Assembly (NCBI GenBank): GCA_030803735.1
Contig: JAURUC010000001.1
Span: forward strand, 4,464,001-4,528,000
From: Actinopolyspora lacussalsi
GTDB taxonomy: Bacteria > Actinomycetota > Actinomycetes > Mycobacteriales > Pseudonocardiaceae
Length of the DNA: 64,000 nt
Direction of reading: 5' to 3'
The notes under the pieces are model-generated. The model worked only from the letters and a program-made list of their open reading frames with translations. It was not told where the DNA came from and did no database searches. How positions within the stretch are numbered: the first letter of the stretch is position 1; each line of letters begins with the position of its first letter. Positions 25,696-57,890 of the stretch are shown here, one piece after another. The translations under genes and the position numbers were made by a program.

Positions 25696-25802
25696 GGTTG
25701 CTTGGCGGAACCTCTCGCGCGGCTCTCGCTCCGGGAGGCCCGACATCGGGTAGCGACCTACACAACGTCGGGCCTTCCTCGCGAGAGTCGCGCCAGCGAA
25801 CC
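25696..25802 (+). repeat. Dispersed hairpin repeat, full copy R1
   Basis: A 107-bp imperfect palindrome has three nested arm pairs. The outer pair is GGTTGCTTGGCG with CGCCAGCGAACC, the middle pair GGCTCTCGC with GCGAGAGTC, and the inner pair GGCCCGAC with GTCGGGCC, around a loop containing TAGCGACCTACAC. It lies 30 bp after upp. About 55 bp further a diverged TTTCGCGAGAAA-type repeat follows (25859-25880). The rest of 25666-26040 shows no gene. Confidence 0.8.
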
Positions 25803-26054
25803 CGCGGCGGTGCCGACTGCGACAGTGGCTGGGGTTCGGCCTGCGTCGAAGCGGCTCGGCGATTTCGCGAGAGATTGACGGTGCCGCGCTGTGTGTCGAG
25901 TCACCATCGTGTGCGCGGCAGTGGGAGCACCACGGCGCCCCGAGTGTGGAAGTGTCGGTCCAGTGTGGAACCAGTGCTTCGTTTCCGCTGTTGAGCGGCA
26001 TTCGCTGCTTCACGGATCCGGTTTCGTGGTCCTGCGTCCGAACGGGTGAAAGAT

Positions 26055-26088
26055 TGGTCCATACCTTGACCAAACTTGGTCTAGACCA
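26055..26088 (+). promoter_or_regulatory. DasR-type operator pair (dre) upstream of chitinase
   Basis: TGGTCTAGACCA at 26077-26088 is a perfect 12-bp palindrome, and with its flanks (CTTGGTCTAGACCACA) it matches the known DasR-responsive consensus ACTGGTCTAGACCAGT at most positions. A half-conserved copy, TGGTCCATACCT, is 22 bp upstream at 26055-26066. DasR is the GntR-type repressor of aminosugar and chitin genes in streptomycetes and relatives, relieved by glucosamine 6-phosphate. The sites lie 44-77 bp before the chitinase start. Confidence 0.85.
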
Positions 26089-26131
26089 CACGGTGTTGGG
26101 CATCCCGTACCGATCCCATCGGGAGTGAGCG

Positions 26132-27517
26132 ATGTCTCTGAGTACACGTTCGACGTGGCGATTATCAGCACTGGCAGCCGGAGCCGCGCTGTTCACGGGG
26201 CTGTTGGCCGCACCGGCCACTGCCACCGGCGTTGACGGTTCCACCGAGCAGGGCGCGGATCGCGCGGCCACCGCCGAGGCGGCTGCCCAAAGTGGATCCC
26301 GCAAGGTCGGCTACTTCACACAGTGGTCGATCTACGACCGGCAGTTCTACATCAACGATCTGGTCACCTCGGGTACCGCCGAGAAACTGACCCACATCAA
26401 TTACGCGTTCGGAAACCTGGATTCCTCCGGGCAGTGCTTCACCGGTAACCAGGCCGGTGAGGCCGACGCGTGGGCCGATTACCAGAAGCGGTTCTCGGCG
26501 GCCAACTCCGTCGACGGCGTCGCCGACACCTGGGACCAGCCGTTGGCGGGCAATCTCCACCAGCTGGCCGAGCTCAAGGAGATGTATCCCCACCTCAAGG
26601 TCTACATCTCGCTGGGCGGCTGGTCGTGGTCGGACGACTTCCACACCGCGGCCGCGACGCAGCAGTCCCGCGCGCAGCACGTGAAGTCCTGCATCGACAT
26701 GTGGTTGCGGGGCAACCTGCCGAAGCTCGGCGGTTCGCCGCAGGGCGGCGAGGGCGTCGCGGCGGGCATCTTCGACGGCGTCGACATCGATTGGGAGTGG
26801 CCCGCTTCCGAGGGCGGCCCCGGCACCATCGTGGATCCGGCCGACAAGCAGAACTACACCGCCCTGTTGCGGGAGTGGCGCAGCCAGCTCGACGGTCTGG
26901 AAGCCGAGACCGGCGAGACCTACGACCTGACCGCTTTCCTGCCCGCCTCACCCGAGAAGATCGACGCGGGCTTCGAGGTGAACAAGGTCTTCGACTCGCT
27001 GGACTTCGCCACCGTGCAGGGCTACGACCTGCACGGCGCCTACGAGGAGACCACCAACCACCAGTCCGCGCTGTACAGCCCGGCCGGTGATCCCTCCACC
27101 GAGCGGTTCAGCGTCGACAAGGCGATCGACACCTATCTTGACAGAGGGGCTCCGGCGAACGAACTGGTGCTCGGAGTCCCGTTCTACGGCCGAGGCTGGA
27201 CCGGGGTTCCGGACCAAAACAACGGCCTGTTCCAGACCTCCACCGGACCCGCTCCCGCCACTTACGAAGCGGGATACGAGGACTACAAGGTGCTCAAGGA
27301 CAAGGTCGGTCAGTACACGATCCACCGTGACGAACAGGCGGGCTTCGCGTGGCTGTTCGACGGCAACACGTTCTGGACCTTCGACGATCCCGTGGAGATC
27401 GCCAGGAAGATGGACTACGTCAACGGCAACGGTCTGGGCGGCGCCATGATCTGGTCGCTGGACGGTGACACCGCGGACGGTGAACTGATGACCGCCATCG
27501 ACGAGAACCTGAACTGA
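26132..27517 (+). CDS. Secreted GH18 chitinase
   Basis: The 461-residue protein has a Sec signal (LSALAAGAALFTGLLAAPATATG, residues 11-33, in two parts) and a single GH18 domain. The catalytic motif FDGVDIDWEWP holds Asp218, Asp220 and the acid Glu222. SLGGWSWSDDFH and the late MIWSLDGD tryptophan also fit. A chitin-insertion-like region lies near LGVPFYGRGW. There is no carbohydrate-binding module. It would cleave chitin in the medium. The DasR-type operators upstream indicate induction by N-acetylglucosamine metabolism, and a strong hairpin at 27555-27586 terminates it. The mature chain is acidic, which fits a salt-adapted host. Confidence 0.95.
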   Translation: MSLSTRSTWRLSALAAGAALFTGLLAAPATATGVDGSTEQGADRAATAEAAAQSGSRKVGYFTQWSIYDRQFYINDLVTSGTAEKLTHINYAFGNLDSSGQCFTGNQAGEADAWADYQKRFSAANSVDGVADTWDQPLAGNLHQLAELKEMYPHLKVYISLGGWSWSDDFHTAAATQQSRAQHVKSCIDMWLRGNLPKLGGSPQGGEGVAAGIFDGVDIDWEWPASEGGPGTIVDPADKQNYTALLREWRSQLDGLEAETGETYDLTAFLPASPEKIDAGFEVNKVFDSLDFATVQGYDLHGAYEETTNHQSALYSPAGDPSTERFSVDKAIDTYLDRGAPANELVLGVPFYGRGWTGVPDQNNGLFQTSTGPAPATYEAGYEDYKVLKDKVGQYTIHRDEQAGFAWLFDGNTFWTFDDPVEIARKMDYVNGNGLGGAMIWSLDGDTADGELMTAIDENLN

Positions 27518-27554
27518 TCCCTTCCCAGGCATGGGCCACGTGGCGGGCCCATGG

Positions 27555-27586
27555 TCCGCCCCGGCGATCCCCGTCGCCGGGGCGGA
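27555..27586 (+). terminator. Intrinsic-type terminator after chitinase
   Basis: Thirteen-base arms (TCCGCCCCGGCGA and its exact complement) flank a six-base loop and are followed by TTTC, 38 bp after the stop codon. Confidence 0.65.
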
Positions 27587-27600
27587 TTTCCGCGGCGCGG

Positions 27601-27618
27601 CGATTTCGCGAGAAATCG
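27601..27618 (+). repeat. TTTCGCGAGAAA palindromic repeat copy
   Basis: CGATTTCGCGAGAAATCG is identical to the copies at 6303 and 6356 and lies directly after the chitinase terminator. Confidence 0.75.
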
Positions 27619-27801
27619 ACGCCAGCCGGGGAGGCACCGCCGCCACCGCCGCGCTGGAGCGGCGAACGGCGTTGATTACCGATTGTGACCGCGTGTCCGG
27701 CCGATCATGCCGTCCGAACATCACTAACCCGGCGTACGCACGTTGTTGAGGTGGGGTTCGCACTGCCGGTGGGGTCCTTTTCCGGGGACGCATGGCAAGC
27801 T

Positions 27802-28989
27802 GTGCGTGTGGTATCACGACATAACGCTGTCCGAGGTGCTCTGCTGGCCGCGACGGTGGGCGGGACCGTGTATCGCAGCCTGCGCACCCTTCGGAAAGCG
27901 CGAGCCATTCTGCCGTTGGAGCAGCAGCCGGCGAGTACCGTGCTGCCGCCTACCGTGACCGTGGTGGTTCCCGCGCGCAACGAGGAAGACGTGCTGGACA
28001 ACTGTCTGCGCGGCATCCGCGAGCAGACCTACGGTTGCGCACGTGGCCCGGACGACGAGGAACCCGCCCTGCGGGTCGTGGTGGTGGACGACGGTTCCAC
28101 CGACGGTACCAGCGAGATCGCTGCCCGCCACGCGGCCGAGGACCCGCGAGTACGGGTCGTACGCAGCGAGGGGCCGCCGTCGGGATGGACCGGCAAGGTG
28201 CACGCGATGCACGTCGGTGTCGAGGCCGCTGGCGAGCCAGAGGCCGGTGAGTGGCTGATGTTCGTCGACGCCGACACCGTGCTCGCTCCCGAACTGCTGG
28301 CGAAGCTGCTGGCGACCGCGGAACACGCGGACGCCGATCTGGTCTCCACACCGGGTGGGCCGCCGGCCGAACACTCGGCGAGCTGGCCGATACTGATGCC
28401 CGCCGGGCTGCAGATGATCGGTGAGAACGCCGATCCGGTCGGCAAGGGAAGCAAGGCGTTCGCCATCGGCCACTGCATCCTGCTGCGTCGCTCGCACTAC
28501 GAGAAGATCGGCGGCTGGGCGGCGCTGTCCGGACGTCGCAACGAGGACATCGCCATCGCCACCACCGTACGCGATCACGGCGGGATCACCAGGGTTGTGG
28601 AAGGGCTCTCGTACGCGACCACCAGCGGTATGGACCCATTCCGGCAGGGGTGGGACTCCTTCCGCAAGAGCTTCGTGGCGGGGACCAACGGTTCGCTTCC
28701 GCTGTTGCTCGGCATCGGGTTCGGCCAGATCTCGCTGTCGCTGGCCTCTCCGGCGATCTTCGCGGCGGGAGTGCGTGGTCGGAATCCGGCGTTGATCGCG
28801 CTCGGCTCACTCGGTTGGACGGCACAGAGCGCGACGCACGCCCGCACCGCGCGCGTCATGCACGCGGGACCCTGGTTGGCACCGGCCGCACCGTTCACCA
28901 ACGCGGTCTTCGGCTGCATCATGCTGCACGGTGCGCTGGAGGTGGCGCGGGGAGTGACCAGCTGGAAGGGACGCGCCGCGAAGTTCTGA
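27802..28989 (+). CDS. Membrane-associated family 2 glycosyltransferase
   Basis: The 395-residue protein carries a GT-A domain with VTVVVPARNEEDVLDNCLRGI in two strands, VVDDGSTDGTSEI, the metal-binding VDADT, and the acceptor-side RRNEDIAIATTVRDHGG. Three or four hydrophobic segments follow (LPLLLGIGFGQISLSLASPA, FTNAVFGCIMLHGALEVA). It resembles transferases acting on polyprenol or terpenoid/hopanoid lipids (CrtQ/HpnB-like), but the acceptor is not shown. Several in-frame GTGs are possible starts; 27802 is chosen because the helix LLAATVGGTVYRSL then follows near the N-terminus. It is apparently monocistronic. Confidence 0.85.
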   Translation: MRVVSRHNAVRGALLAATVGGTVYRSLRTLRKARAILPLEQQPASTVLPPTVTVVVPARNEEDVLDNCLRGIREQTYGCARGPDDEEPALRVVVVDDGSTDGTSEIAARHAAEDPRVRVVRSEGPPSGWTGKVHAMHVGVEAAGEPEAGEWLMFVDADTVLAPELLAKLLATAEHADADLVSTPGGPPAEHSASWPILMPAGLQMIGENADPVGKGSKAFAIGHCILLRRSHYEKIGGWAALSGRRNEDIAIATTVRDHGGITRVVEGLSYATTSGMDPFRQGWDSFRKSFVAGTNGSLPLLLGIGFGQISLSLASPAIFAAGVRGRNPALIALGSLGWTAQSATHARTARVMHAGPWLAPAAPFTNAVFGCIMLHGALEVARGVTSWKGRAAKF

Positions 28990-29344
28990 AGCGGGGCATC
29001 GTCCCTGGTCGATCTCGTGTGGTGTGTAACGTCGCCGTTGATCGAATACACGAGAGCCTCACGGCGGATTGTCGCGAGATCGCGGTCCGCTGCCCGAACG
29101 TACGGCAGACGCGCCCCGTGTTGAACACGTTTTGAATTTTTCCGCGTACATTTCGTGATCGCGCTCCTTTTTCGGTTCGTCGCTGGGGAATGCTTCGGCT
29201 GATGACGCCGGGGAGCGGTGACCAACTTTCCATGTCGCTTCGACGCTCCCGACTTCCGGACCCGCGGGATGCGGCGAACGGGCCAGTCGAGTCCGTCGAA
29301 ATTTCCTGTTATCGGATCAGGGCGAATACCGGAAGATTTGGATA
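28990..29344. other. Gene-free stretch with a locally AT-rich patch
   Basis: No credible gene is seen. The patch around 29125-29175 is clearly richer in A and T than its surroundings and could hold the promoter for the unknown gene that follows. Confidence 0.35.
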
Positions 29345-29977
29345 GTGTCCGGTGTGGAATCCACGTCGGCAAGAACGGATTCCGTGACGGTTCTGAATGC
29401 CAATCCGGACTTCTTCTGCCACAGCATCGCCTCGAACAGGCTCGAACCCAAGCTCCTACTGGAGGGATCGAGCGGATGCTGGTGGGGCGAGAAACACCAC
29501 TACACCTGCTGCGGACTGAACGGCTCGTTCATAAAGTCCCGCGGCAAGACATCGGAGTGCTGCTACGAGGAAATGGTCGATGTCGCCTACCTGTTCGATA
29601 CGATTCCGACCGAAATAGTCGGAACGCCGGAGCGGAAACTGCCGCACGCGGTGGAGGAGTGGTCGACGACCCACTCGCGCAGCTGGCTCAAGTACGCGGT
29701 CACCGGCGACGAGACCGTGATTCTCGGTGCCAGACCGGCTTTTCCCGACACCGAGCTGGTGCTCGCGGATCCGTTCGAAACGGAGCTATTCCGCGTACTC
29801 GACCAGCCACGTTCGACTCGATACCTGAGGCGTAGCTTCGTAGACGAGACTGACCACCAAGCTCGACGAGTGGGCCGATTCCTGGTTCCCGTGCGAGTGC
29901 GTCCAGCGGGAAGGGCCGGGTTTTCTCCAGATCCGGGACAGGAGGGGATCGGCTGTGGAATGCTACACGGTGAGTGA
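29345..29977 (+). CDS. Unknown Cys-rich protein, probably frameshifted near its 3' end
   Basis: The frame gives 210 residues from GTG 29345. Up to about residue 167 the sequence is protein-like, with the distinctive CWWGEKHHYTCCGLNGSF and ECCYEEMVDVAYLFDTIP, and DTELVLADPFETELFRVLD. After about 29850 it becomes arginine-rich and shadow-like. The next forward frame instead becomes protein-like there (TKLDEWADSWFPCECVQREG). This indicates a single-base frameshift, real or a sequencing error, at about 29840-29860. The four to six cysteines in the first third suggest metal binding. I do not recognise the family. Confidence 0.55.
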   Translation: MSGVESTSARTDSVTVLNANPDFFCHSIASNRLEPKLLLEGSSGCWWGEKHHYTCCGLNGSFIKSRGKTSECCYEEMVDVAYLFDTIPTEIVGTPERKLPHAVEEWSTTHSRSWLKYAVTGDETVILGARPAFPDTELVLADPFETELFRVLDQPRSTRYLRRSFVDETDHQARRVGRFLVPVRVRPAGRAGFSPDPGQEGIGCGMLHGE

Positions 29978-30377
29978 TCCGGAACTCGTTCGCGCGGCCC
30001 GTTCGCTGGCAGGTGGAACGACGCCCGACGGGATCGATTCCGGTACGAGGGAACGGTTCGCGGACAGTGGCCTCCTCGTGCGGTTGGGGTCTCTGAAGTG
30101 GTGGGCTCCCGCGAGGATTCAGCTGCGGGACTCTCTTCGGTTCGGGTTGTCCCCGCTCGTGTCGTCCCCCACGGAGACCTCGGGCACGGCGGCACTGACT
30201 CACTCCATCAGGTTCGCCGCCACGGTGGCGCCGAGCTCCCAGCACGCGTCCAAGCCCGTCGAGTCGGGTTGTCCGGTGAGATCCACCGGTTCGGCGACCT
30301 GCTGCCATCCCAGTCCGGTGGTTATGGAACGAGCGGCCCGGAGCGCGCCCTCGGTGCCCTCGTTGCCGTGCACGTAG
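29844..30377 (+). pseudogene. Frameshifted continuation of the unknown gene at 29345
   Basis: After a TAG at 29841 this frame reads LTTKLDEWADSWFPCECVQR, then GFLQIRDRRGSAVECYTVSD, LVRAARSLAGG and ERFADSGLLVRLG. It looks like the natural C-terminal half of the preceding protein. It lacks a plausible own start before GTG 29955, and beyond about 30200 it is merely antisense to the flavodoxin-like gene, so its original end is probably lost. I treat it as the second half of one broken gene. Confidence 0.45.
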
Positions 30378-30652
30378 ATGCCGAACGGCCTGCCCCCGGT
30401 GGCGTCCAGACACGGGTAGTAGATCTGGTCGAAGAAGTGCTTGAGCGCGCCCGACATGTAGCCGAGGTTGGCCGGGGTGCCCAGCAGGTACCCGTCGGCC
30501 GCCAGCACGTCGGCGGCAGTGGCGGACAGCGCGGCCCTGCGCACCACCTCGACACCCTCGATCTCGTCGGTGGTCGCCCCCTCGACGACCTTCTCGAACA
30601 TCGCCTGCATCCCCGGTGAAGGGGTGTGGTGCACGATCAGCAGTCGGGCCAT
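30200..30652 (-). CDS. Flavodoxin-like NAD(P)H-dependent FMN reductase family protein
   Basis: The 150-residue protein has the flavodoxin fold: LLIVHHTPSPGMQAMFEKVVEGA in place of the phosphate loop, then ADGYLLGTPANLGYMSGALKHFFDQIYYPC, the FMN-binding and dimer segment typical of WrbA-like reductases, and PFGIYVHGNEGTEGAL. It likely binds FMN and reduces quinones or similar acceptors. It converges on, and overlaps, the broken gene on the plus strand. Single gene. Confidence 0.87.
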   Translation of the reverse strand: MARLLIVHHTPSPGMQAMFEKVVEGATTDEIEGVEVVRRAALSATAADVLAADGYLLGTPANLGYMSGALKHFFDQIYYPCLDATGGRPFGIYVHGNEGTEGALRAARSITTGLGWQQVAEPVDLTGQPDSTGLDACWELGATVAANLME

Positions 30653-30733
30653 GCCGTCAGTCTAGGAGTCCGGTGTCTCCCCGAGGGCGAGGCGGCTGGG
30701 GCGGGGTTTTCCCGGCGGCGGGAACGCCGGTAC

Positions 30734-31120
30734 TCAGCAGCGGTTCTCCCACCAGTTCCCGTTGGTCCACGTGGGGACCGGGACTGTTTTGGCGATGTAG
30801 AGCTCGTCCAGCGGTGCGACGTGGGAGCGAAGCTCCCTGGCGAGATGCCTCGGCAGGGCTCGGAGCGCGCGTTCCAGCGTGTCCCTTTCGAACGGGGCGA
30901 TGAACTCGGTGAGGTCGTTGTGCTCGCCCTGAAGTTTCGCGGTGGGGGCATGACAAGCCCACTTCCACTGCCTGAGCGCTACGCCCACGCTCGCCGCGTC
31001 GAGATCTTCGCGGTCCAGCCGGTCCAGGGCGTGTGCCACGCGGCGTGACACACCGGGAATCTCGCTCGTCGGACTCGTCCGTGGTGCGCGCCGAACGCGC
31101 GCGGGCCGGTTACGCGGCAT
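30734..31120 (-). CDS. Conserved-looking hypothetical protein
   Basis: A 128-residue basic protein starts at ATG 31120 behind GAAGGG. The core RRVAHALDRLDREDLDAASVGVALRQWKWACH and LTEFIAPFERDTLERALRALPRHLARELRSHVAPLDE is helical and amphipathic. It ends in aromatic TWTNGNWWENRC. Normal codon use supports translation. I do not recognise a domain; helical bundles of this size are often DNA- or protein-binding. Confidence 0.6.
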   Translation of the reverse strand: MPRNRPARVRRAPRTSPTSEIPGVSRRVAHALDRLDREDLDAASVGVALRQWKWACHAPTAKLQGEHNDLTEFIAPFERDTLERALRALPRHLARELRSHVAPLDELYIAKTVPVPTWTNGNWWENRC

Positions 31121-31298
31121 CTTCCCTTCGGGAAGGGATCATCTCGGTAGCCATGTCCCGAACGTACCCTGCTCGTGCCCGTTCTTCGAATGCTTTTTCT
31201 CCGTAGCACGGCGTGGTGGCCGCATCACCGGAGATTTCGGGTGCGGAGTTCGCCGATCCCGGCCAATCGCGCCGCGGTGTTTGCCATGATCGGGAACC

Positions 31299-32261
31299 GT
31301 GGCACGTTCCCAGCCAACCCCGGAAGTTCCCCGGGTGCTCAGCAACAGGGCGATCACGATCGGCGCCGTCGTGGTCGTCGGGATCACGCTGCTCTCGACG
31401 ACCCTGCTGGTGGTCGTGCTGCGGGACGCGCCGCCCAAGGTGATCCTGGAAGCCGTGCGCACCTCCGCGAGCATCGGAGTGGGCACGGGCGGCGCCGCCG
31501 CTCTCTGGTTGGCGGCCCGGCGGCAGCGCAGCACCGAGGTCAGCATTCTGCGACGGGATCACGATGCCACCGAGACCCGGGTCACCGAACTCTACGGCAG
31601 GGCCGCCGAGCAGCTCAGCACCGACAAGGCCCCGGTCCGGCTGGCCGGGATCTTCGCCCTGGAACGGCTGGGCCAGACCTACCCGACGCACCGGCAGACG
31701 ATCGTCGATCTCATCTGCGCCTATCTGCGGATGTCCCCGGAGGCACCGGACGAACAGCCGAGTCCCGAGCACGGCGGCCCCCAGGAGTTCGAGGTGCGGC
31801 AGGCCGCGCAGCAGGTGCTGGTCACCCACCTGCGGCTGGACGAGGAACCGGCGGAGGACTCGCTGTTCTGGCCGGACATAGCGCTGAACCTGTCCGGAGC
31901 CGTACTGCACACCTTCACGTTCTCCCGATGCCGCGTGCGTTCGGCCACCTTCGCCGATGCCAGTTTCCACGGTCCGGCCGTGTTCCGGGGGACGCTGTTC
32001 GAGCGGCAAGCCGATTTCCGAGGAGTGCGATTCAGCGGCCTCGGGGATTTCCGCCGCGTCGGCTTCGAGGGCGAGGGCGTGACATTCCGAGGCGCGACCT
32101 TCGCGGGAGAGGTGGACTTCGGCACGCACACCACTGCCGCACTCACCGGGGCGATGACCCGGTTGGACGACGACACGCGCCGGAAATGGCCCGCCGACTG
32201 GACCGAACGACCGTTGCCCGACGAGCCGGGTTGGGCCGAGCTCGTGGCGCGGCGGGGCTGA
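31299..32261 (+). CDS. Membrane-anchored pentapeptide-repeat protein
   Basis: The 320-residue protein has an N-terminal span ITIGAVVVVGITLLSTTLLV (19-38) and a second weak span (SIGVGTGGAAALWLAA). A helical linker with HDATETRVTELYGRAAEQL follows, and from about residue 200 a right-handed pentapeptide helix with A/F at every fifth place: SATFADASFHGPAVFRGTLF, QADFRGVRFSGLGDFRRVGF and VTFRGATFAGEVDF. In actinomycetes such proteins with a shared ERLGQ segment (here LAGIFALERLGQ) are common and unassigned. It may act as a scaffold or DNA mimic at the membrane. GTG start. Confidence 0.88.
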   Translation: MARSQPTPEVPRVLSNRAITIGAVVVVGITLLSTTLLVVVLRDAPPKVILEAVRTSASIGVGTGGAAALWLAARRQRSTEVSILRRDHDATETRVTELYGRAAEQLSTDKAPVRLAGIFALERLGQTYPTHRQTIVDLICAYLRMSPEAPDEQPSPEHGGPQEFEVRQAAQQVLVTHLRLDEEPAEDSLFWPDIALNLSGAVLHTFTFSRCRVRSATFADASFHGPAVFRGTLFERQADFRGVRFSGLGDFRRVGFEGEGVTFRGATFAGEVDFGTHTTAALTGAMTRLDDDTRRKWPADWTERPLPDEPGWAELVARRG

Positions 32262-32845
32262 ATCCCGCGAAACCGAGCTCGTGGGGGATCGTCGCCCATC
32301 CCGATCGGAAGATCCGAACGGAAGAATCGACCGGAGATTTCCGACACGATGGAACCGAACGCGCTCGTGCTGCGTCAGATCCATGATGCTCCGGACAGGA
32401 ACGGAGCCATCCGGTTCGACACCGGTCGAATCGAGGGAACGTTCGGCATGGGAGTCAGGGAAGTGACCTATTCGCTCCGATCCGGCAATGAGGCGGATGC
32501 CGCGAAACCCGCTGTGCGTAGAACAGCGTGGCGACGTTCCGGCTCCGTCGCGGTCGGGCGGTCGGAAGGCGTGGCTTGGGGGTCACGCCACGCGGCTTGG
32601 CGGTCGCGTGCCGCCGCCGTGACGGTCCCGCGGAACCGTGTCGCCCACGGTCTTCGTACGGTACGGCCTACTCGTGTGCGCTTCGGTCGGTACGTGAGCC
32701 TACCGGTGGACACCACCGCACGGCTTGGTGGTCGCGCGGGTCCCTCGTAGGCGATCGCGCTTTTCGATACCGGCACACGAGTCGGGTCGTTTTACCGCTT
32801 CCTACCGAGGGGAGCAGCGGTTCCCGAACGGTCGGGCCCGCGTTC
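32262..32845. other. 584-bp gene-free stretch
   Basis: Short frames here have no protein-like character. Visible structure is limited to a small dyad GCGTGGC / GCCACGC at about 32569-32592 and repeated GGCTTGG-like words. It separates the pentapeptide-repeat gene from the convergent phosphohexomutase. Confidence 0.4.
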
Positions 32846-45887: not shown

Positions 45888-45932
45888 ACGGGGCTTCCCG
45901 GGCACACCGGCCGGGAAGCCCCGTTTTCTTTT
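45888..45932 (+). terminator. Intrinsic terminator after betP
   Basis: Fourteen-base arms (ACGGGGCTTCCCGG and exact complement) with an eight-base loop are followed by TTTCTTTT, 24 bp after the stop codon. One of the clearest rho-independent terminators in the window. Confidence 0.93.
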
Positions 45933-45960
45933 CGAGAGTGCTGGGGGGCGGCGTAGGTGG

Positions 45961-46067
45961 GTGCTTGGCGGAACCTCTCGCACGGCTCTCGCCGCGGGGC
46001 CGGCGACATCGGGTAGCGACCTGCACAACGTCTCCGGCGTCCTCGCGAGAGCCGCACGGGAGAACCC
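45961..46067 (+). repeat. Dispersed hairpin repeat, full copy R2
   Basis: It shares GTGCTTGGCGGAACCTCTCG, the loop GACATCGGGTAGCGACCTGC and the GAGAACCCGCGG end with R1. The inner stem has changed to GCCGGCGAC / GTCTCCGGC, still pairing. A diverged TTTCGCGAGAAA-type repeat follows at 46149-46166, as after R1. It lies beyond the betP terminator, so it is not needed to end that transcript. Confidence 0.8.
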
Positions 46068-46371
46068 GCGGTCGGTCCTGCTGCGAGGGTGGTCGGGGTT
46101 CGATCCGCATGGGTGGTCGGAGTTCGGCGCTGCGTCGAAGTGACGCGGCGATTTGGCGGGAAATCGACGGCGCTCGGAGTGCGGGGATCCGACCGACGTG
46201 CCCGGGAACCGTGTGGCGGTTTTCACAGGGGTGGTTCCCTCGTTCGGTTGGCTTTCGCGCCGGCAGGAAGTTCCAGGCTTTACACGTTCGAGTGACCATT
46301 GATGGTCGTTCTGCTCCGATCTGGGGGATTTTTCGCTGAAAAGTCACTCATGGTGCCCAATATGGTGCAAT

Positions 46372-50107: not shown

Positions 50108-50122
50108 CCCGTTCGAGCAGGC

Positions 50123-50329: not shown

Positions 50330-50346
50330 GGTGTGGGACCTTTCGC

Positions 50347-51216
50347 TTATGTCTCGGGGGCATACGACTGCTCGGCCACTGAGCGGATCAGTTCCAAGGA
50401 TTCCCTGGGGCCCACTGCGGCGGCTTGCAGTCGGTTCCACAAACTAACGTAGTCGCTCACGGCCTCCTTGCTGTCCAGGTATCTCGCATCGTCGAATGAT
50501 TCGACGTAGACGAAGTCCAGGTCGGGTGTGGTACCAGGTGAGGGGATTGTCAGGATCGTGAAGTCGTAGCTGATCGCTCCCGCGTACGTCTGAGCGTCGA
50601 AAGGTATGACCTGCATGTGGATGTTGTCTTCCAGCGCCAGGTCGTACAGATAGTCAAGCTGCTGTCGCATGACCCCGCGATCGCCGATCTGCCGACGTAG
50701 ACACGACTCGGAGAGTACGAAGGATGCCGAGGGTGGGGTCGACCGGGTGAGGATCGACTGCCGCTCCAGTCTGGCGGACACCGCCGCGTCCACATTGCTG
50801 TCATCGGCTCGTGGCGAGGACGTCTCCAACGCTCGGATGTATGCCTCTGTCTGCAGGATACCCGGCATGATTTCGCCACGAGCCTGACGTATGTCGCTGG
50901 CGTCGGTCTCCAGGTCCACGTACTGCCGGAACCAATCGGGGAAGACCGACCGGTAACCACCCCATCTGCCGCGTGCGCTCCGGGCGCGTGCCAATTCGAG
51001 CAACCAGTCCTTGTGTTCCTGCGTGTCACCGTACTCATCGAGTAGCAACAGCAGATCGCCCTTGGTGATACCGGATTGGCCCAGCTCCAAGCGGCTGATC
51101 TTCGTGGTTGCGCAGTCGAGGATGCGTGCGGCATCCGCCTGTTCGAGGCCTGCCGCCTGACGGGCGTGGCGTAGTTCGTTGCCGAGCTGCAACCGCCTGA
51201 CCGTGGGTGTGGCCAT
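50347..51216 (-). CDS. WhiJ/Scr1-like XRE-family regulator with DUF5753 domain (second module)
   Basis: The 289-residue protein starts at ATG 51216 behind GGAGG. The HTH is ELRHARQAAGLEQADAARIL with CATTKISRLELG, and the C-terminal domain shows VFPDWFRQYVDLETDASDIR, GILQTEAYIRALE and NIHMQVIPFDAQTYAGA. It shares architecture but not close identity with the regulator at 11623, so the two modules are paralogous or separately acquired rather than a recent copy. It faces the small zinc-ribbon gene at 51364. Confidence 0.93.
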   Translation of the reverse strand: MATPTVRRLQLGNELRHARQAAGLEQADAARILDCATTKISRLELGQSGITKGDLLLLLDEYGDTQEHKDWLLELARARSARGRWGGYRSVFPDWFRQYVDLETDASDIRQARGEIMPGILQTEAYIRALETSSPRADDSNVDAAVSARLERQSILTRSTPPSASFVLSESCLRRQIGDRGVMRQQLDYLYDLALEDNIHMQVIPFDAQTYAGAISYDFTILTIPSPGTTPDLDFVYVESFDDARYLDSKEAVSDYVSLWNRLQAAAVGPRESLELIRSVAEQSYAPET

Positions 51217-51363
51217 CCGTGTCCTCCAGGGGTGCCGAGTTTCTGCCGGGCACATTGAAGAGTGTCAGCGGGTTGGCGGGCATGCCGTGCGAGCCACGGA
51301 TTTCGCGCCGAGGGCGGCTGCGTCCCTTCCGCTGATCGCCACGTCTCCGAGGAGACCGATCCG

Positions 51364-51603
51364 GTGGAGTGCCTGATCAGTGAGTGTGGCGAAGTACTGC
51401 CGCTGGCGTTCGTGATGCATCACGACGGCGGACAGCGATGCGCCGCGTGTGCGCGTCTCACGTGCTTGTCCGGCTCGTCACGTCTACACGAACCAGATCG
51501 ACCAGAGCCCGGCCTACCGTCGCTGCCCCGACCTTCGGCGGTGGGCCGGTTCCATTTCGAGGACGACTCATGCCCGAACCGCGTGGCTACATGCTGGCTA
51601 TGA
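51364..51603 (+). CDS. Short zinc-ribbon-like protein divergent from WhiJ-like gene
   Basis: GTG 51364 follows GAGGAG by about nine bases and opens a 79-residue frame. Residues 3-35, CLISECGEVLPLAFVMHHDG and GQRCAACARLTC, have paired Cys like a small zinc ribbon and share the CGEV-L-GG-C-C order with the protein at 13282. The rest is Pro/Ser-rich. It overlaps the next ATG by 34 bp. Unknown function; position suggests a third member of the HTH/DUF397 module. Confidence 0.5.
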   Translation: MECLISECGEVLPLAFVMHHDGGQRCAACARLTCLSGSSRLHEPDRPEPGLPSLPRPSAVGRFHFEDDSCPNRVATCWL

Positions 51604-51758
51604 GTGGTGACCTGAACCCGGACCTTCTGACTCGTAACCATTTCCGTCCGGGCGCGGACGTGGCCGGGTCGCAGAGTAGTGAGTGGTCGTCCCAGTGGGC
51701 TCCGCCCGCGCCTGAGCTGCTGCGAGAGGTTCTGGACGGGTTGAGCAAGCTCACCTGA
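51570..51758 (+). CDS. 62-residue unknown protein
   Basis: ATG 51570 lies six bases after GAGGA. The protein, beginning MPEPRGYMLAMSGDLNPDLL and ending in an amphipathic APELLREVLDGLSKLT helix, is mildly acidic. It is probably co-transcribed with the zinc-ribbon gene and lies 73 bp before hisS. No family recognised. Confidence 0.5.
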   Translation: MPEPRGYMLAMSGDLNPDLLTRNHFRPGADVAGSQSSEWSSQWAPPAPELLREVLDGLSKLT

Positions 51759-51831
51759 CGCACCGTGCTGTCGGAGGCGACCGTTACGCTTAGTGCGATC
51801 CCGTAGTCATCGAGTCGCCCGAAGGATCACC

Positions 51832-53127
51832 GTGAGCGAGTACCTGTCCACCGAGCCCTACCGTGGAACCCGCGACTTCCTGCCCGACGAGATGTCGGTG
51901 CGCACTCAGGTGTTCCATCGGCTCTACGAGGTACTCGAACGTTACGGCTACCAGCGCTACGACGGTCCACAGTTGGAGCCGGTCGAGATTTACGAGTCCA
52001 AGTCCAGCCAGGAGATCGTCAATCAGCAGCTCTACACGCTGACCGATCACGGTGGGCGACGGCTCGCGCTGCGCCCGGAGATGACTCCTTCGGTGGCGCG
52101 CATGATCGCGGGCAACGCGGGGTCGCTGACCTTCCCGGTGCGCTGGTACAGCCACCCGAACTGTCACCGCTATGAGCGCCCCCAGCGCGGGCGCGTGCGT
52201 GAGCACTGGCAGATCAATGTCGACCTGTTCGGCTCGTCCTCCACGGCGGTGGAGGTGGAGTTTTTGGAACTGATTCACGACATGATGGCCAGCTTGGGCG
52301 CGAGCACCGACATGTGGCGGTTGAGGGTCAGCGACCGAGTGCTGTTGGACGCGCTGCTGACCCACATCGTCGGCGTTCCACACGACAAGGTGCGCGAGAC
52401 CGCGAACCTGCTGGACCGCTGGGAAAAGGTCAGCGCCGACACGCTGGCCGAAAGTGCCACCGAGATCGGCCTGTCGGAGGAACAGTTCGCCCGGCTGGCC
52501 GAGGTCGTCAAGGACGGTCGCGCCGCGATCGAGGAACTTCCCGTTGAGGTGCGCAACCAGTCCCGACTCATGCAGGTGCTCGACACGAGTGCGGCCGAGC
52601 TGATCGAGTTCGATCCGTTGATCGTGCGCGGGTTCGACTACTACACCTCCACGGTGTTCGAGGTGTTCGACACCGACCCGAGTAACCGCCGGTCGCTGTT
52701 CGGTGGTGGCCGCTACGACAACCTGGTGGGCCTGTTCAGCAACAAGGAGATCCCCGGCTTCGGGTTCGGGATGGGTGACGTCACGATCATCGACTTCCTC
52801 GACACCCACGGCCTGCTGCCGCGGCCGCGCACCGATGTGGATGTGGTGGTGATCCCCACAGAGGAACAGTTGTTCGATCCGGCGCGACGCGCTGCTCGGG
52901 TCCTGCGGGACGCGGGCCTGCGGGTCACCACGCCGCTGGATACGCGCAAGCTCGGCAAAGAGATCCAGCGCGCCGACAAGGCCGGTGCGCGAGCGGTGGT
53001 CATAGTCGGTCCGGACGACTGGGTATCCGAATTGGTCACCGTGCGGGATCTGGCCAGCGGGGAGCAGCATCAGACGACGTTGCACGCGCTGGATTCGTCC
53101 GTACGGGCGATCATTCCGTCCGAGTGA
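51832..53127 (+). CDS. hisS: Histidyl-tRNA synthetase (possibly a second copy)
   Basis: The 431-residue class II synthetase has motif 2 FPVRWYSHPNCHRYERPQRGRVREHWQINVD (two parts), the histidine-specific signatures VRGFDYYTSTVFEVF and GGGRYDNLV, motif 3 GFGFGMGDVTI, and a C-terminal anticodon-binding domain VDVVVIPTEEQLFDPARRAARVLRDAG. All catalytic residues appear intact. The N-terminus (STEPYRGTRDFLPDEM) and the SHPNCHRYERPQ loop differ from the form I associate with actinobacterial housekeeping HisRS, so this may be an additional enzyme. It sits in an accessory block beside an unknown gene, not in a translation operon. GTG 51832 follows AAGGA. Confidence 0.9.
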   Translation: MSEYLSTEPYRGTRDFLPDEMSVRTQVFHRLYEVLERYGYQRYDGPQLEPVEIYESKSSQEIVNQQLYTLTDHGGRRLALRPEMTPSVARMIAGNAGSLTFPVRWYSHPNCHRYERPQRGRVREHWQINVDLFGSSSTAVEVEFLELIHDMMASLGASTDMWRLRVSDRVLLDALLTHIVGVPHDKVRETANLLDRWEKVSADTLAESATEIGLSEEQFARLAEVVKDGRAAIEELPVEVRNQSRLMQVLDTSAAELIEFDPLIVRGFDYYTSTVFEVFDTDPSNRRSLFGGGRYDNLVGLFSNKEIPGFGFGMGDVTIIDFLDTHGLLPRPRTDVDVVVIPTEEQLFDPARRAARVLRDAGLRVTTPLDTRKLGKEIQRADKAGARAVVIVGPDDWVSELVTVRDLASGEQHQTTLHALDSSVRAIIPSE

Positions 53128-53173
53128 CACTCGTTTGTGAGCGTATGACCCACGGTCGGGAGTCCGGGCTGAA

Positions 53174-53234
53174 AAATAGGTTCCTATTTAAGCTGTTGCG
53201 GTATCAGGATTACCGAAAAGTGAAGATAGGTTCC
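53174..53234 (+). promoter_or_regulatory. Palindrome plus half-repeat overlapping the RBS of the hisS-linked gene
   Basis: AAATAGGTTCCTATTT (53174-53189) is a perfect palindrome with a TT centre. Its half-site ATAGGTTCC recurs at 53226-53234, where the AGG serves as the ribosome-binding site and the site ends one base before the ATG at 53236. The stretch is AT-rich against its surroundings. It looks like an operator pair controlling the unknown gene. Confidence 0.6.
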
Positions 53235-53235
53235 C

Positions 53236-53871
53236 ATGCCCCTGAGCGGTACCCAGTTCCTCAACGGCATCGCAGAGCACGGTATCCCCGCGACTTGGGA
53301 CGAGTTCGGCACGTACATGTCGCAGGACGGCGCGCTCGTGACTCATCTCGTCGCGGCGGTGCGGGAAGTCCACAACACCGGTAGCGATCAGGCGCGGGAC
53401 GCCACCCTGCGCCTGATCGATGAGAAGCGGGGCAACCTGGCCGCTGCCCGGAATCCGCTCGCCGACCGGATCGTGGCGTATCGCGAGTCCGGTCGGTGGG
53501 CGAAGCTGGACGCGGTGGTGCGATCGGTCGATGTGGATCAACTCATCGACAGCATGCGTGTTCACTTCGGCTTGCACTCGTTCCTCATCGCGCTGGAGTC
53601 GGTGCGCTTCAACTTCGAGTACGTGCGCCAGTACGGCTTCGAGGCGTTCTACCGGATGACCGATGAGTACCTGTTCGAGATCGAACGGCTCACCACCGAG
53701 GCCCGGACGGCGTTCGAGACCGAACCGATTGGCGAGAGTTTCCCGCCGTTCTGGCTCTACAAACTCGACATGGTGAGTACGGAGGTTCCGTCGCATTGCC
53801 ACATCTGCCAGAACCTGATCACCTTCGCCGAGCGCGCGCTGGATGATGATCGCGGCAGTTCTTTCGCGTAG
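53236..53871 (+). CDS. Unknown protein following hisS
   Basis: The 211-residue protein is mostly helical and acidic, with TWDEFGTYMSQDGALVTHLV, RGNLAAARNPLADRIVAYRE, a long helical segment around HSFLIALESVRFNFEYVRQYGFEAFYRM, and a C-terminal CHICQNLITFAERAL where the two Cys could bind metal with the nearby His pair. Base composition and codon use are normal. It is 108 bp downstream of hisS on the same strand but has its own operator-like repeats, so it may be separately regulated. I do not recognise the family. Confidence 0.7.
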   Translation: MPLSGTQFLNGIAEHGIPATWDEFGTYMSQDGALVTHLVAAVREVHNTGSDQARDATLRLIDEKRGNLAAARNPLADRIVAYRESGRWAKLDAVVRSVDVDQLIDSMRVHFGLHSFLIALESVRFNFEYVRQYGFEAFYRMTDEYLFEIERLTTEARTAFETEPIGESFPPFWLYKLDMVSTEVPSHCHICQNLITFAERALDDDRGSSFA

Positions 53872-54078
53872 AACGCGATGAACAGGGGTTCGTTCTTGCT
53901 GCGATCACACGGAACCCTTGACGTGGAGTAGTCGCTCTCCGGTCCGTTGTACAGGCCGGACCGGGATCCTCGTAGCGGATTCCTCGTCGCACTGCTCGCT
54001 GCCGGGTCGTACCGGGTTTCCCTGCGAAATCACCCGTCCGGGGTGTATCACCGCGTGCCGTTCGGCTCTCTTGTCGGT

Positions 54079-54948
54079 ATGAGCGAACGAACGGAACTAA
54101 TCCTGTCGCGAGACCGGTGCGATGCCGAGCTGCTCGCGGCCGTACGTGCTGCCGGGGCGTTGCCCCGGTGTCGGCTACGCGCCCGGTTCGGGCAGCGCCG
54201 ACTGAGCGCCGCGTTGTCCCGTGGAACGGTGGCCGCGCAGTGGCCGGGAGTGCTGGTGCCTGCCGAGTCGCTGCACCAGCCGCGCACCCGCGCCCTGGCC
54301 GCGCTGTTGTGGGGAGCGCCCGGGGCGGTGCTGTCGGGGCCGACAGCACTCGCGGTGCACGGCTGTGCTCCCGTTCCCACCACGACGTACCTCACCGTTG
54401 TCCACGACAGGCGGCCTCCGAGGGGAAGCGGACTCGTGGCCCGGCAGAGCCGGGTCCGCGAGTCCGAGGTGATGGAACTGGACGGGCTGCGCACCCAGGT
54501 GCTCGACGTCGCGCTGACCGAGGTGTTGTGCACGGCGGGCGACGCGACGTTCGCCTCGGCGTGCCTACGGTGGACGCTTTCGGCGATGACGCCCGCCGCG
54601 GCGCGCCAGCTCGTCGAGCTGGTACGGCGGCGCATCGCCATCAGGGCAGATCGGCGCGGCACGCGCCGTGCTCTGGCGCTGCTCGCGGCCTGTCGTCGGG
54701 TCGACGGCCGTGCCGATGACCGGATCGTCCCCGAGGGGGTCGCCGAAGGGACGGAGGGCTCAGCGAGCCGGGCCGGTGTTGCTGCAGGGCAGGGTGCGCA
54801 GTTTGGTCACGTAATCGTTCGGCGCTCCGGCCCGCTCGGCGGCCTCGGCGATCAGTCCCAGGTAACGCGCGGAGGGCAGACCGCCCTCGTAGGCGTCGAG
54901 CACGTACAGCCAGGCGAGTGTCGGACCGTCCAGGGTGTGGATCCGTAG
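54079..54948 (+). CDS. AbiEi-antitoxin-like N-terminal domain protein, probably 3'-truncated
   Basis: From ATG 54079 the first 200 residues look natural. There is a winged-helix start (LILSRDRCDAELLAAVRAAGALPRCRLRARFG) and then WPGVLVPAESLHQPRTRALAALLWGAPGAVLSGPTALAVHGC, the pattern of proteins with an AbiEi-type antitoxin domain followed by a nuclease-like part. After about residue 225 the frame merely reads antisense through the gamma-glutamylcyclotransferase gene, so the expected C-terminal domain is missing. The gene probably lost its end in a deletion and now overlaps its convergent neighbour by 189 bp. Confidence 0.5.
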   Translation: MSERTELILSRDRCDAELLAAVRAAGALPRCRLRARFGQRRLSAALSRGTVAAQWPGVLVPAESLHQPRTRALAALLWGAPGAVLSGPTALAVHGCAPVPTTTYLTVVHDRRPPRGSGLVARQSRVRESEVMELDGLRTQVLDVALTEVLCTAGDATFASACLRWTLSAMTPAAARQLVELVRRRIAIRADRRGTRRALALLAACRRVDGRADDRIVPEGVAEGTEGSASRAGVAAGQGAQFGHVIVRRSGPLGGLGDQSQVTRGGQTALVGVEHVQPGECRTVQGVDP

Positions 54949-55218
54949 CCGCAGTTTCTTGTGCAGTCCCAGGTCCGAGCCCTCCCAGCGGTCGAGTTCC
55001 TGCTCGTCCTCGGGGCTGACGTCGTAGAGCACGGTGAAAACCTGCGCCTCCGGCTCCTCGACGATCGTCGCGAGTGCCCCTTCCCAGCCCACGTCCTCAC
55101 CGCCGAAAGTGAGCCGCCAGTCCATCAACCAGCCTGTTCCCGTCAGCGGCGAGTGGGGAGCGCGTTGCAGCATCTGGGCCGGATCCATGTTGGATCCGTA
55201 AGCGGCGTATAGCGGCAC
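54760..55218 (-). CDS. Gamma-glutamylcyclotransferase-like protein
   Basis: The 152-residue protein begins MPLYAAYGSNMDPAQMLQRAP, the GGCT/AIG2 phosphate-like loop with YGSN, and has the acidic catalytic region YDVSPEDEQELDRWEG and WLYVLDAYEGGLPS. The fold releases 5-oxoproline from gamma-glutamyl compounds. It is divergent from lpdA and convergent toward the amidohydrolases, as for Rv3304 in mycobacteria to my recollection. Confidence 0.85.
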   Translation of the reverse strand: MPLYAAYGSNMDPAQMLQRAPHSPLTGTGWLMDWRLTFGGEDVGWEGALATIVEEPEAQVFTVLYDVSPEDEQELDRWEGSDLGLHKKLRLRIHTLDGPTLAWLYVLDAYEGGLPSARYLGLIAEAAERAGAPNDYVTKLRTLPCSNTGPAR

Positions 55219-55540
55219 GGCTCACAGGATAACCACGCCTCGATCCGTTGTCCCCTCCAGCTGACCGTGCTCGGTTCGCTACTTCGTGTGCTCGTGTGAC
55301 ACGCGGCTTCCGGCGGGTACCGGTGGGCCGCGCGAGCGGGGTGGCGGCGTACCGTTGGGCCGGCGGTTGCGAGCCCGGGACTAGGGGTGCGAAATGGTCT
55401 CTACCAATTCCGGGCGAGAGCGATTCCGTCTCGCACGGCCGCGAGCGCACCCGAGCGCCGTGGTCGCCGCGTGGTGCCGGACGGCGGTTCGGAGCGCGAG
55501 CAGCGCGGATCCGAGAACACGGTCCTGTGAGCGTGCCTAC

Positions 55541-55592
55541 TCGATGTCGGTCCTCCCGGAGCGAGAACCGGTGGGAGGTTCCGCCAAGCAAG
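55541..55592 (-). repeat. Half copy of the dispersed hairpin repeat (R5), reverse orientation
   Basis: The complement reads TTGCTTGGCGGAACCTCC, then GGTTCTCGCTCCGGGAGG and CCGACATCG, equal to the left half of R1 and almost identical to R4; the right half is missing. The 423-bp gap 55219-55641 around it carries the lpdA promoter and shows no other gene. Confidence 0.7.
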
Positions 55593-55641
55593 TACCCCGG
55601 CCAACCCGGGGTGGCAAAGTCCTATGAGGAGGTAGAGCGAA

Positions 55642-57045
55642 GTGTCCCGCATCGTAATCATGGGAGGCGGGCCCGCGGGCTACGAGGCCGCCCTCGTGGC
55701 CGCCCAGAACGGGGCTGACGTCACGCTGGTCGAGGCCGAGGGACTGGGCGGAGCCTGTGTGCTCTACGACTGCGTGCCGTCGAAGACCTTCATAGCCTCC
55801 GGGGGCGCTCGCTCTTCCATCCGTGATGTGCAGGAACTCGGCATTCGGGTCAAGGAAGGTGCCGCGGACGTGGACACGGCCGTGGTGCACGGCAGGGTCA
55901 AGGGGCTCGCGCTGGCGCAGTCGGCCGATATCCGTTCCCGGGTCCACCGGGAGGGTGTCCGGATCCTGGGTGGCCGTGCGCGGTTCGTCGACGAGACACA
56001 GGGACTGGCGCAGCACCGGATTCGGGTCGACCTCAGCGACGGCGGGCAGGAGGAGCTCGTCGCCGACTCCGTCCTGATCTCCACCGGCGCGACACCGCGC
56101 GTGCTGCCGGGAGCCCAACCCGACGGCGAACGCATCCTGACCTGGCGACAGCTCTACGACCTGCCCGAGCTCCCCGAACACCTCGCGGTGGTGGGTTCCG
56201 GCGTCACCGGCGTCGAGTTCGCATCCGCCTATGCCGAGATGGGCGTGAAGGTGACGCTGGTCTCCAGCCGTGACCGGGTGCTGCCGCACGAGGACGCAGA
56301 TGCCGCCGCTGTGCTGGAGGAGGTGTTCTCCGAGCGGGGAGCCAGCGTGGTCAAGCACGCCCGCGCCGATCGCATCGACCGCACCGAGTCCGGGGTGCTG
56401 ATCCACCTCAACGACGGGCGTCAGATCGAGGCCAGCCACGCGTTGATGACCGTGGGATCGGTGCCCAACACCGCCGACATCGGGCTGGACCGCATCGGTA
56501 TCGAACCGGACCGTGCGGGCTACATCCCGGTGGACCGGGTGTCCCGAACCAGTGCGACCGGCGTCTACGCGGCCGGGGACTGCACCGGCGTGCTGCTGTT
56601 GGCCTCGGTGGCCGCGATGCAGGGGCGGATCGCGATGTGGCACGCACTGGGCGAGGGGGTAACCCCGATCAAGCTCAAGACGGTGGCCGCCAACGTCTTC
56701 ACCCATCCCGAGATCGCGACCGTCGGGATCAGCCAGCAGGCGATCGAGTCCGGCGAGGTTCCCGCCCGAAGCGTCGTGCTGCCGCTCTCCGGTAACCCCC
56801 GCGCCAAGATGGAGGGGGTTCGCCGCGGCTTCCTCAAGGTCTTCTGCCGTCCGGCGACCGGTGTGGTCGTCGGTGGCGTGGTCGTGGCCCCCAACGCCAG
56901 TGAGCTGATCCTGCCGTTGGCGCTGTCGGTGCAGAACCAGGTCACAGTGGAGGACCTGGCCAACACCTTCTCGGTGTACCCGGCGCTTTCCGGGTCGTTG
57001 ACCGAGGCGGGGAGGCAACTCATGCGCCACGACGATCTGGATTAG
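55642..57045 (+). CDS. lpdA: NAD(P)H-quinone dehydrogenase, lipoamide-dehydrogenase-like flavoprotein
   Basis: The 467-residue protein has an FAD-binding start (IVIMGGGPAGYEAALVAAQNGADVTLVEAEGLGGACVLYDCVPSKT), a second dinucleotide fold (LAVVGSGVTGVEFASAYAEMG), and AAGDCTGVLLLASVAAMQGR. Both redox cysteines of C-x4-C are present. However, the C-terminal His-Glu pair of true lipoamide dehydrogenases is replaced (SVYPALSGSLTEA), which marks the LpdA quinone reductase group. It likely reduces quinones with NAD(P)H for redox defence. GGAGG precedes the GTG start. Confidence 0.9.
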   Translation: MSRIVIMGGGPAGYEAALVAAQNGADVTLVEAEGLGGACVLYDCVPSKTFIASGGARSSIRDVQELGIRVKEGAADVDTAVVHGRVKGLALAQSADIRSRVHREGVRILGGRARFVDETQGLAQHRIRVDLSDGGQEELVADSVLISTGATPRVLPGAQPDGERILTWRQLYDLPELPEHLAVVGSGVTGVEFASAYAEMGVKVTLVSSRDRVLPHEDADAAAVLEEVFSERGASVVKHARADRIDRTESGVLIHLNDGRQIEASHALMTVGSVPNTADIGLDRIGIEPDRAGYIPVDRVSRTSATGVYAAGDCTGVLLLASVAAMQGRIAMWHALGEGVTPIKLKTVAANVFTHPEIATVGISQQAIESGEVPARSVVLPLSGNPRAKMEGVRRGFLKVFCRPATGVVVGGVVVAPNASELILPLALSVQNQVTVEDLANTFSVYPALSGSLTEAGRQLMRHDDLD

Positions 57046-57074
57046 TGAGAGTCGGTGCCGCGCTCTCCGCGGCT

Positions 57075-57178
57075 GGTTGCGTGGCGGAACCTCACGAGCC
57101 GTCTCGCTGCGGGAGCCTCGACATCGGGTTTACTACACAATGTCGAGGCTGTCCTCGCGAGACGACCCGTGAGAACCC
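57075..57178 (+). repeat. Dispersed hairpin repeat, full copy R3
   Basis: It starts GGTTGCGTGGCGGAACCTCA 30 bp after the lpdA stop. The inner stem here is GAGCCTCGACA with TGTCGAGGCT and the middle stem GTCTCGC with GCGAGAC, both perfect but different in sequence from R1. The rest of 57046-57397 shows no gene. Confidence 0.8.
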
Positions 57179-57397
57179 GCGGCGGTGCGTGTTGCGTGCG
57201 GGGAGGGGCGTGGCGGTGCGAGCTGCTTGGGAAGTTCGTGGCAAGCGAGCTGCGTTGGTGACCGTTCGGCGCTGCGCGCCGAGACGAGGTCGTGGCATCG
57301 GGTTCGGGCCGGGAGCGCCGCTGTTGGCTCCCGGGGATCAGCGAGGCTTCCGCGTCTCGGTGTGCGGTGCGGGGGTGGGGTGCGGGACATTGGTGTC

Positions 57398-57805
57398 GTG
57401 ACTGAGCTTCCCGCGCTGATCTACGACGGTGACTGCGGGTTCTGCACCCGCAGCGTGCGCCTGGCCGACCGGCTTCCGGTTCGGGTCAGTTCCGTGCCCT
57501 GGCAGGAGGCGAATCTGGAGTGGCTGGGAGTGCCCGAACAGCGGGCGCGGAACGAGGTCGTGTTCGTCGACGAGTACCACCGACTCCACGGTGGGGCCGC
57601 CGCGGTGGCGACGTTGCTGCGGCACTGTCGGGGTCCGTGGCGGCTGGCCGGATCCGTGCTCGCCGCGCCGGTGATCCGCTCGGTGGCGGATGCGGTTTAC
57701 CGCCTCGTGGCGAACAACCGGCACCGACTACCGGGTGAGACTCCTGCCTGTCAGCTGCCGCCCGAGCGCCGTCCCGGCAAAGCCGAGCGAGACTCCGGCC
57801 GCTGA
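57398..57805 (+). CDS. DCC (DUF393) thiol-disulfide oxidoreductase-like protein
   Basis: The 135-residue protein has the defining YDGDCGFCTRSVRLADRL motif at residues 9-26, with the CxxC pair, then NEVVFVDEYHRLHGGAAAVATLLRHCRGPW and a C-terminal helix with VADAVYRLVANNRHRLPGE, all typical of the DCC family. The family is assumed to work in thiol redox exchange. GTG 57398 is chosen because upstream in-frame sequence is not protein-like. Single gene, followed by half repeat R4. Confidence 0.9.
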   Translation: MTELPALIYDGDCGFCTRSVRLADRLPVRVSSVPWQEANLEWLGVPEQRARNEVVFVDEYHRLHGGAAAVATLLRHCRGPWRLAGSVLAAPVIRSVADAVYRLVANNRHRLPGETPACQLPPERRPGKAERDSGR

Positions 57806-57833
57806 TCGAAGTTTTCCGGTCGGGTTGTCGGGT

Positions 57834-57890
57834 TGTTCGCTTGGCGGAACCTCCTGCCGGTTCTCGCTCCGGGAGGCCCGACATCGGATG
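57834..57890 (+). repeat. Half copy of the dispersed hairpin repeat (R4)
   Basis: CTTGGCGGAACCTCCTGCCG and CTCGCTCCGGGAGGCCCG are present with ACATCGG, then similarity ends: only the left half, matching R5. It lies about 30 bp after the DCC gene stop. The rest of the 306-bp gap (57806-58111) shows no gene. Confidence 0.7.

Follow-up and report, generated by a model that had tools for sequence, protein, structure and literature searches.

The 64-kb stretch of the Actinopolyspora lacussalsi chromosome analysed here (the window) contains several copies of a large hairpin repeat, family A, which recurs throughout this chromosome and in other genera of the Pseudonocardiaceae. Family A is probably a MITE- or ERIC-like family of non-autonomous repeats that was spread by transposition and whose copies in Actinopolyspora are by now mostly inherited and reshuffled. 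In this genus, the repeat unit spans about 230 bp and comprises a 28-nt left module, a two-stage hairpin of about 105 nt, a spacer and often a tail palindrome, with one or two such palindromes located within 210 nt in 49 of the 70 copies analysed in the own genome. The edges and loop columns are almost invariant across 39 copies aligned with MAFFT, and conserved A–C mismatches form AAC/AAC and CA/CA internal loops. The window holds the following features.

6026–6141, plus strand: family B hairpin, with an apical GTAG..CTAC as in family A and different stems (sequence; model search)
6212–6323, plus strand: family A right edge (6212–6223) and tail palindrome (6301–6323) behind family B (sequence)
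25676–25703, plus strand: left module of copy 1, about 28 nt before GGCGG (70-copy profile; pairwise match ends)
25699–25812, plus strand: family A full hairpin, copy 1 (covariance-model match; sequence)
25858–25881, plus strand: tail palindrome GGCGATTTCGCGAGAGATTGACGG of copy 1 (sequence)
45888–45934, plus strand: perfect intrinsic-terminator-like hairpin preceding copy 2 (sequence)
45962–46076, plus strand: family A full hairpin, copy 2 (covariance-model match; sequence)
46147–46170, plus strand: tail palindrome of copy 2 (sequence)
55541–55592, minus strand: left-half copy upstream of lpdA (sequence; present also in G127, G007 and G004)
57078–57187, plus strand: family A full hairpin, copy 3 (covariance-model match; orthologous copies in five other genomes)
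57834–57890, plus strand: left-half copy (sequence; present also in G127 and G007)

An initial annotation, made from the letters of the window alone, had recognised the three full copies, the two left-half copies and the perfect terminator in front of one of them (copy 2), all of which were found again. Its edge and stem sequences also stand, with the amendments that the loop of copy 3 is shorter than described, GGGTTTACTACAC, and that the pairing proposed for the inner stem of copy 2 holds at eight of nine positions. What had been taken for a degenerate copy at 6030–6238 is better read as the family B hairpin with a family A right edge and tail behind it. The GGCGG of the 5′ edge begins 38 nt past a TAG stop (25663–25665) in copy 1, 102 nt past the upstream stop and behind the U-tract terminator in copy 2, and 37 nt past the stop of the gene at 55642–57045 in copy 3, a putative lpdA that keeps the name given to it in the initial annotation. 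On the sense strand, the fold energies of copies 1 and 3 stand out (z about −4), and those of copy 2 (z −1.5) and of the two left halves (0.3 and −0.9) are unremarkable. In the window, no Rfam family reached its gathering score. Relaxing the search to E up to 10 brought up only microRNA and snoRNA matches below threshold, around copy 1 and the family B hairpin, none of them credible.

Family B shares the architecture of family A around an apical GAGTAGCGACCTACGC loop; its loop motif matched eight times in 864 kb of the own genome, and the family was noted at 6026–6141 of the window and in L159, L158, L181, L167 and L174. A short palindrome, GGCGATTTCGCGAGAAATCGACG, is often found behind hairpins of both families and elsewhere in this genome, too (64 pattern matches on the two strands of the same 864 kb, where one palindrome can be counted on both).

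Copy number and distribution

A covariance model (R1) built from five hand-registered copies was run over the window plus 40 evenly spaced stretches of 20 kb (864 kb in total), where 24 copies scored above 89 bits and a further one scored 63 bits. On the whole 5.03-Mb Actinopolyspora chromosome, scoring was applied to 150 of 5916 first-look candidates and gave 131 matches (E up to 0.01), of which 128 exceed 55 bits. Among relatives, matches at E up to 1e-5 occurred in 78 of 297 genomes and 15 of 46 genera of the family, both counts being lower bounds since 12 candidates were scored per genome. The covariance-model search for which the initial annotation had called thus placed the repeat far beyond the window. 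With 150 candidates scored, G003 yielded 145 matches (E up to 1e-5), G248 yielded 72 and G006, which belongs to the same genus as the own genome, yielded only 3, far fewer than the 145 of G003 or the 131 of the own genome; a few of the matches in this comparison represent both strands of one copy.

In a class-wide sample of 394 genomes with nine candidates scored in each, the two genomes with matches were the own one and G065, a member of the same family; a weak DNA-search match (E 1.8e-5) came from G053, which belongs to another family of the order. Of 80 named lpdA neighbourhoods, only those of the two Actinopolyspora and of Halopolyspora gave matches with E below 1e-15, and the only further source at E up to 0.05 was L095 (Umezawaea, E 0.027); the nearest lpdA genes among named genomes are those of Actinopolyspora xinjiangensis and A. 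alba (97–99%). Plasmid and phage collections searched with blastn gave no match, and a literature search, with most subscription-journal papers outside its reach, found no description of family A.

As a side observation, none of the 131 matches falls between 14.1 kb and 1.30 Mb of the own chromosome, a region on the far side of the chromosome from the origin, which GC skew over 40 stretches places near 3.6 Mb. In G003, none of the matches listed falls between 1.48 and 2.71 Mb.

Stem covariation and exchange of whole hairpins

The claim of a dispersed structured family with covarying stems was borne out both genome-wide and family-wide. In an alignment of 48 copies from several genera—fitted to the structure and therefore leaning towards it—paired cells amount to 93.3% and two-sided changes occur in 23 of 37 pairs, making up 131 cells against a mean of 30.9 in shuffled alignments and 12–41 for structures slid along the alignment; none of 500 shuffles was as high on any of five covariation measures. 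A count of the inner stem that is independent of the covariance model took in the 119 copies whose anchors were located and found 26 distinct left arms, the left arm being complementary to its own right arm at 8.28 of nine bases and to a random one at 6.70.

The covariation is real but partly spread by the swapping of whole hairpins, as becomes evident when closely related genomes are compared. In 458 kb aligned with the conspecific genome G127, the regex recovered 15 copies, of which 4107351 and 4419843 are probably false matches, and missed the model match at 4300178. Among the 13 remaining copies, G127 has lost the greater part of the hairpin at two (4121309 and 4311210), the one at 4200597 is replaced or interrupted by family B between the two genomes, and the site at 4206393 carries a copy in the other orientation. 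Hairpin sequence at 4344813 is present in G127 and absent from the own genome, and 4280496 has a left half in the own genome and a full copy in G127. The inner stem has changed on both arms in two of nine alignable copies, with loop and outer stem the same at 4173852 and the loop altered as well at 4391425. Such changes of both arms at once fit an exchange with another copy, and the earlier argument that covariation excludes mere copying is not supported in that form. Hairpins have not diverged more slowly than the sequence upstream of them (49/1134 vs 393/10318, over 11 rows that include the two probable false matches). At 4363247–4363414, the own genome also contains repeated GTGCTCTCCACGTGCGTGGAGGTGAACCG units, two full and one partial in the listed insertions, which look like a CRISPR-type array varying between strains.

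The copy behind lpdA, compared in six genomes, occurs in two states that differ at 29–30 of 98–100 positions, and the CDS differs by just 2.4–4.0% across these states (own genome and G127 vs G007 and G004). Within one state, no substitution separates G127, G003 and G008, whose CDSs show 47–132 differences over 1401 positions; G127 and G003 agree over 100 positions despite a CDS difference of 124/1401 (9%), G008 has a one-base gap, and the own copy differs from that of G127 by one substitution and a two-base gap. Within the other state, G007 and G004 likewise show no substitution, with 64/1401 differences in the CDS. Between species, this copy is switched as one block; within either state, it hardly varies. 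Taken together with the conspecific both-arm changes, this block switch means that covariation alone is no proof of stepwise selection on RNA. Site 45961 carries family A in the own genome and G127, family B in G004, which is another species, a remnant in G007 and neither in four others.

Placement behind stop codons and strand of the hairpin

Genes were called by codon usage with a home-made program. Among 54 copies with a same-strand gene ending within 130 nt upstream, 51 have their 5′ edge, GGCGG, 30–48 nt past the stop codon, in line with the initial impression that most copies follow a stop by about 30 bp. The remaining three stand 10, 102 and 126 nt from the stop, the latter two after a hairpin with a T-tract, as judged by eye. 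Among the 73 regex copies that passed the loop filter, 52 have a same-strand coding stop 25–50 nt upstream, compared to 21 of 2000 random positions, and in four a coding stop of the opposite strand is found no more than 130 nt from the 3′ edge; many of these 73 come from similarity searches, so that the sample is not unbiased, and three matches inside genes remain among them even though nine such matches were set aside. TAG stops are enriched at copies (18/54 vs 35/292 elsewhere, p 2.8e-4; 7/13 in unbiased stretches, p 5e-4), which counts in favour of the transposition reading but could also reflect the type of genes involved. In 42 Actinopolyspora copies, no strong consensus emerges from the 14 nt that follow the stop.

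Sense orientation and the narrow spacing, stem covariation and the lpdA copy that is free of substitutions between G127 and G003 would all suit a cis-acting RNA of the gene strand, that is, a 3′ UTR hairpin that blocks 3′–5′ exonucleases or aids termination and keeps its pairing through stepwise compensation. We consider this reading possible but rather unlikely, and the evidence for selection on gene-strand RNA is weak. G–U pairs are rare, with 37 G–U and 133 A–C among 2458 cells of 67 distinct own copies (G–U 1.5%) and 23 G–U and 83 A–C among 2450 cells of 68 copies from relatives (G–U 0.9%), counts that leave out opposite-strand matches and five true copies per alignment. Yet A–C is not clearly above G–U once two internal-loop columns are removed, which leaves 28 and 34 A–C against 37 and 23 G–U in own copies and relatives, respectively. 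Folding favours the opposite strand in 68 of 70 own copies and 65 of 71 copies from relatives (mean of the 70 own copies −76.4 vs −66.9 kcal/mol on the gene strand), largely because the conserved A–C mismatches turn into G–U there, and this advantage reflects one family consensus and hence few independent data.

A T-run behind the hairpin, too, is absent from the right-flank profile of the 70 own copies, CGGTGCCGACTGCG, so that family A falls outside the class of intrinsic terminators, in which a G+C-rich hairpin is followed by a U-tract. U-tract terminators occur at one of 13 gene ends with a copy and at 26 of 292 others, a comparison that shows no difference and decides nothing. The earlier view that termination alone is insufficient to explain the copies is supported.

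An unlikely further reading sees in family A an exchangeable gene-end cassette, in which pairing, loops and stop distance are kept while stems swap among about 130 sites; the hairpin would then form a boundary against downstream transcription, as a former transposable element that now marks gene ends.

It is improbable that the opposite strand is the functional one, with the hairpin forming in RNA that arrives from downstream, be it from a convergent gene or an antisense transcript, and shielding the 3′ end of the upstream gene. The conversion of A–C into G–U, the better fold and the 32 of 82 regex copies that lie between convergent genes are consistent with such a role, but the A–C excess comes from two internal-loop columns, family B has no clear strand preference, and another 26 of the 82 lie in sense between co-directional genes, where there is no downstream source of such RNA. 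Mere copying, whereby pairing would simply have been handed down in a few subfamilies without ever being under selection, is quite improbable as well: the block exchange among conspecific copies and at lpdA agrees with it, but about ten clearly different inner stems from several genera stay complementary (at least seven of nine bases in all listed pairs but one), and decay would have unpaired them.

Mobile elements and relation to known repeats

The evidence for mobility comes from g26, a genus of the Pseudonocardiaceae in which the hairpin sits inside elements of about 200–230 bp with inverted, IS5-like ends. G248 contains five identical 114-nt cores at unrelated sites, and G307 three identical cores plus a fourth that differs by one base; as in MITEs, these elements are small and multicopy, with recent copies at unrelated sites. 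Elements of G248 are typically about 230 bp long and bounded by AGCCTGTCTTTGAACT, with longer, nested and internally deleted forms alongside, and those of G307 are typically about 200 bp long and bounded by GGCCTGTTTCGAAAGT. By eye, CTNAG flanks several G248 copies on both sides, and copies in this genome often adjoin stop codons in both orientations, sense being the commoner. The own genome carries, in L355, a transposase element (DDE_Tnp_1 and DUF4096) whose ends, CTCAG/AGCCTGTTCCTGAACT and CTTAG/AAGCTGTTCCTGAACT, resemble those of G248, and 16 bases of the G307 ends recur beside a remnant, read by eye, which we take to be of IS5 type. The g26 elements and their identical cores back a non-autonomous mobile hairpin, one of the roles considered in the initial annotation, as the likely origin of the family.

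In Actinopolyspora, terminal repeats were not found in the post-stop comparison of 42 copies or at the ends of pairwise matches, and the sites compared revealed neither a target duplication nor a clean empty site. The left ends of the pairwise matches fall for the most part near −28 or at the edge of the hairpin, and the right ends cluster near +200.

Under the preferred reading of a transposition-spread family, copies would have been mobilised in trans by IS5-type enzymes and would have settled behind stop codons. In Actinopolyspora, they would now transpose little or not at all, and would instead be inherited, lost through hairpin deletions and modified when one copy recombines with another or undergoes gene conversion, processes that move both arms together and thereby keep the pairing. 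The hairpin was probably retained at many sites because a strong structure past the stop codon would be harmless or useful as a 3′-end boundary, and a 3′-end function is plausible. Against a transposition-spread origin, Actinopolyspora yielded no terminal repeats, target duplications or empty sites, the sense bias at stops (52/73 vs 4/73) exceeds what a palindromic target would predict, and hairpins have diverged no more slowly than their upstream sequence between the conspecific genomes.

It is very improbable that family A is a mobile hairpin of single-stranded DNA, as in REP/RAYT or attC systems. The copies are palindromic, mostly intergenic and numerous, and the genome encodes Y1 transposases, but a family A regex match, a single one, occurs at just one of the four Y1 loci (3.2–3.4 kb each), the one with the weakest score (22.6 bits). 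GTAG lies in the apical loop and not at the foot, and the element ends in g26 resemble the ends of DDE transposons. REP/RAYT systems are defined by a tag at the hairpin foot together with a linked Y1 transposase, a combination that family A did not show across these four loci.

Among known repeats, family A can be likened by description, not by sequence, to ERIC, with which it shares a long stem-loop, intergenic position, multiple copies, a MITE-like character and occurrence at gene 3′ ends. ERIC (or IRU) of enterobacteria is described as a 127-bp intergenic, MITE-like repeat with a long stem-loop and tens to hundreds of copies, which is co-transcribed, affects mRNA depending on its orientation and is reported at gene 3′ ends (PMC2229807, PMC10969869). 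Unlike ERIC, the copies in Actinopolyspora lack recognisable terminal repeats and target duplications, keep a narrow distance behind stop codons and have their stems exchanged as blocks. The REPs of E. coli are likewise palindromes close behind stop codons; they measure 20–40 bp (PMC3733652), can protect mRNA and, when within 15 nt of the stop, are reported to act on translation (PMC12306157). Family A, in contrast, is about 105 bp long and lies mostly 30–48 nt from the stop. The inverted IS5-type ends of the g26 elements are like those of IS5-derived MITEs, with the differences that family A has a conserved, covarying hairpin in 15 genera and that the ends differ between the two g26 genomes examined.

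Family A adds a large structured repeat family in the Pseudonocardiaceae, and its narrow spacing from the stop codon makes a 3′-end role directly testable. It is also a well-resolved example of strong covariation that arises in part through the exchange of whole hairpins, which calls for caution when RNA function is read from covariation among genomic repeats.
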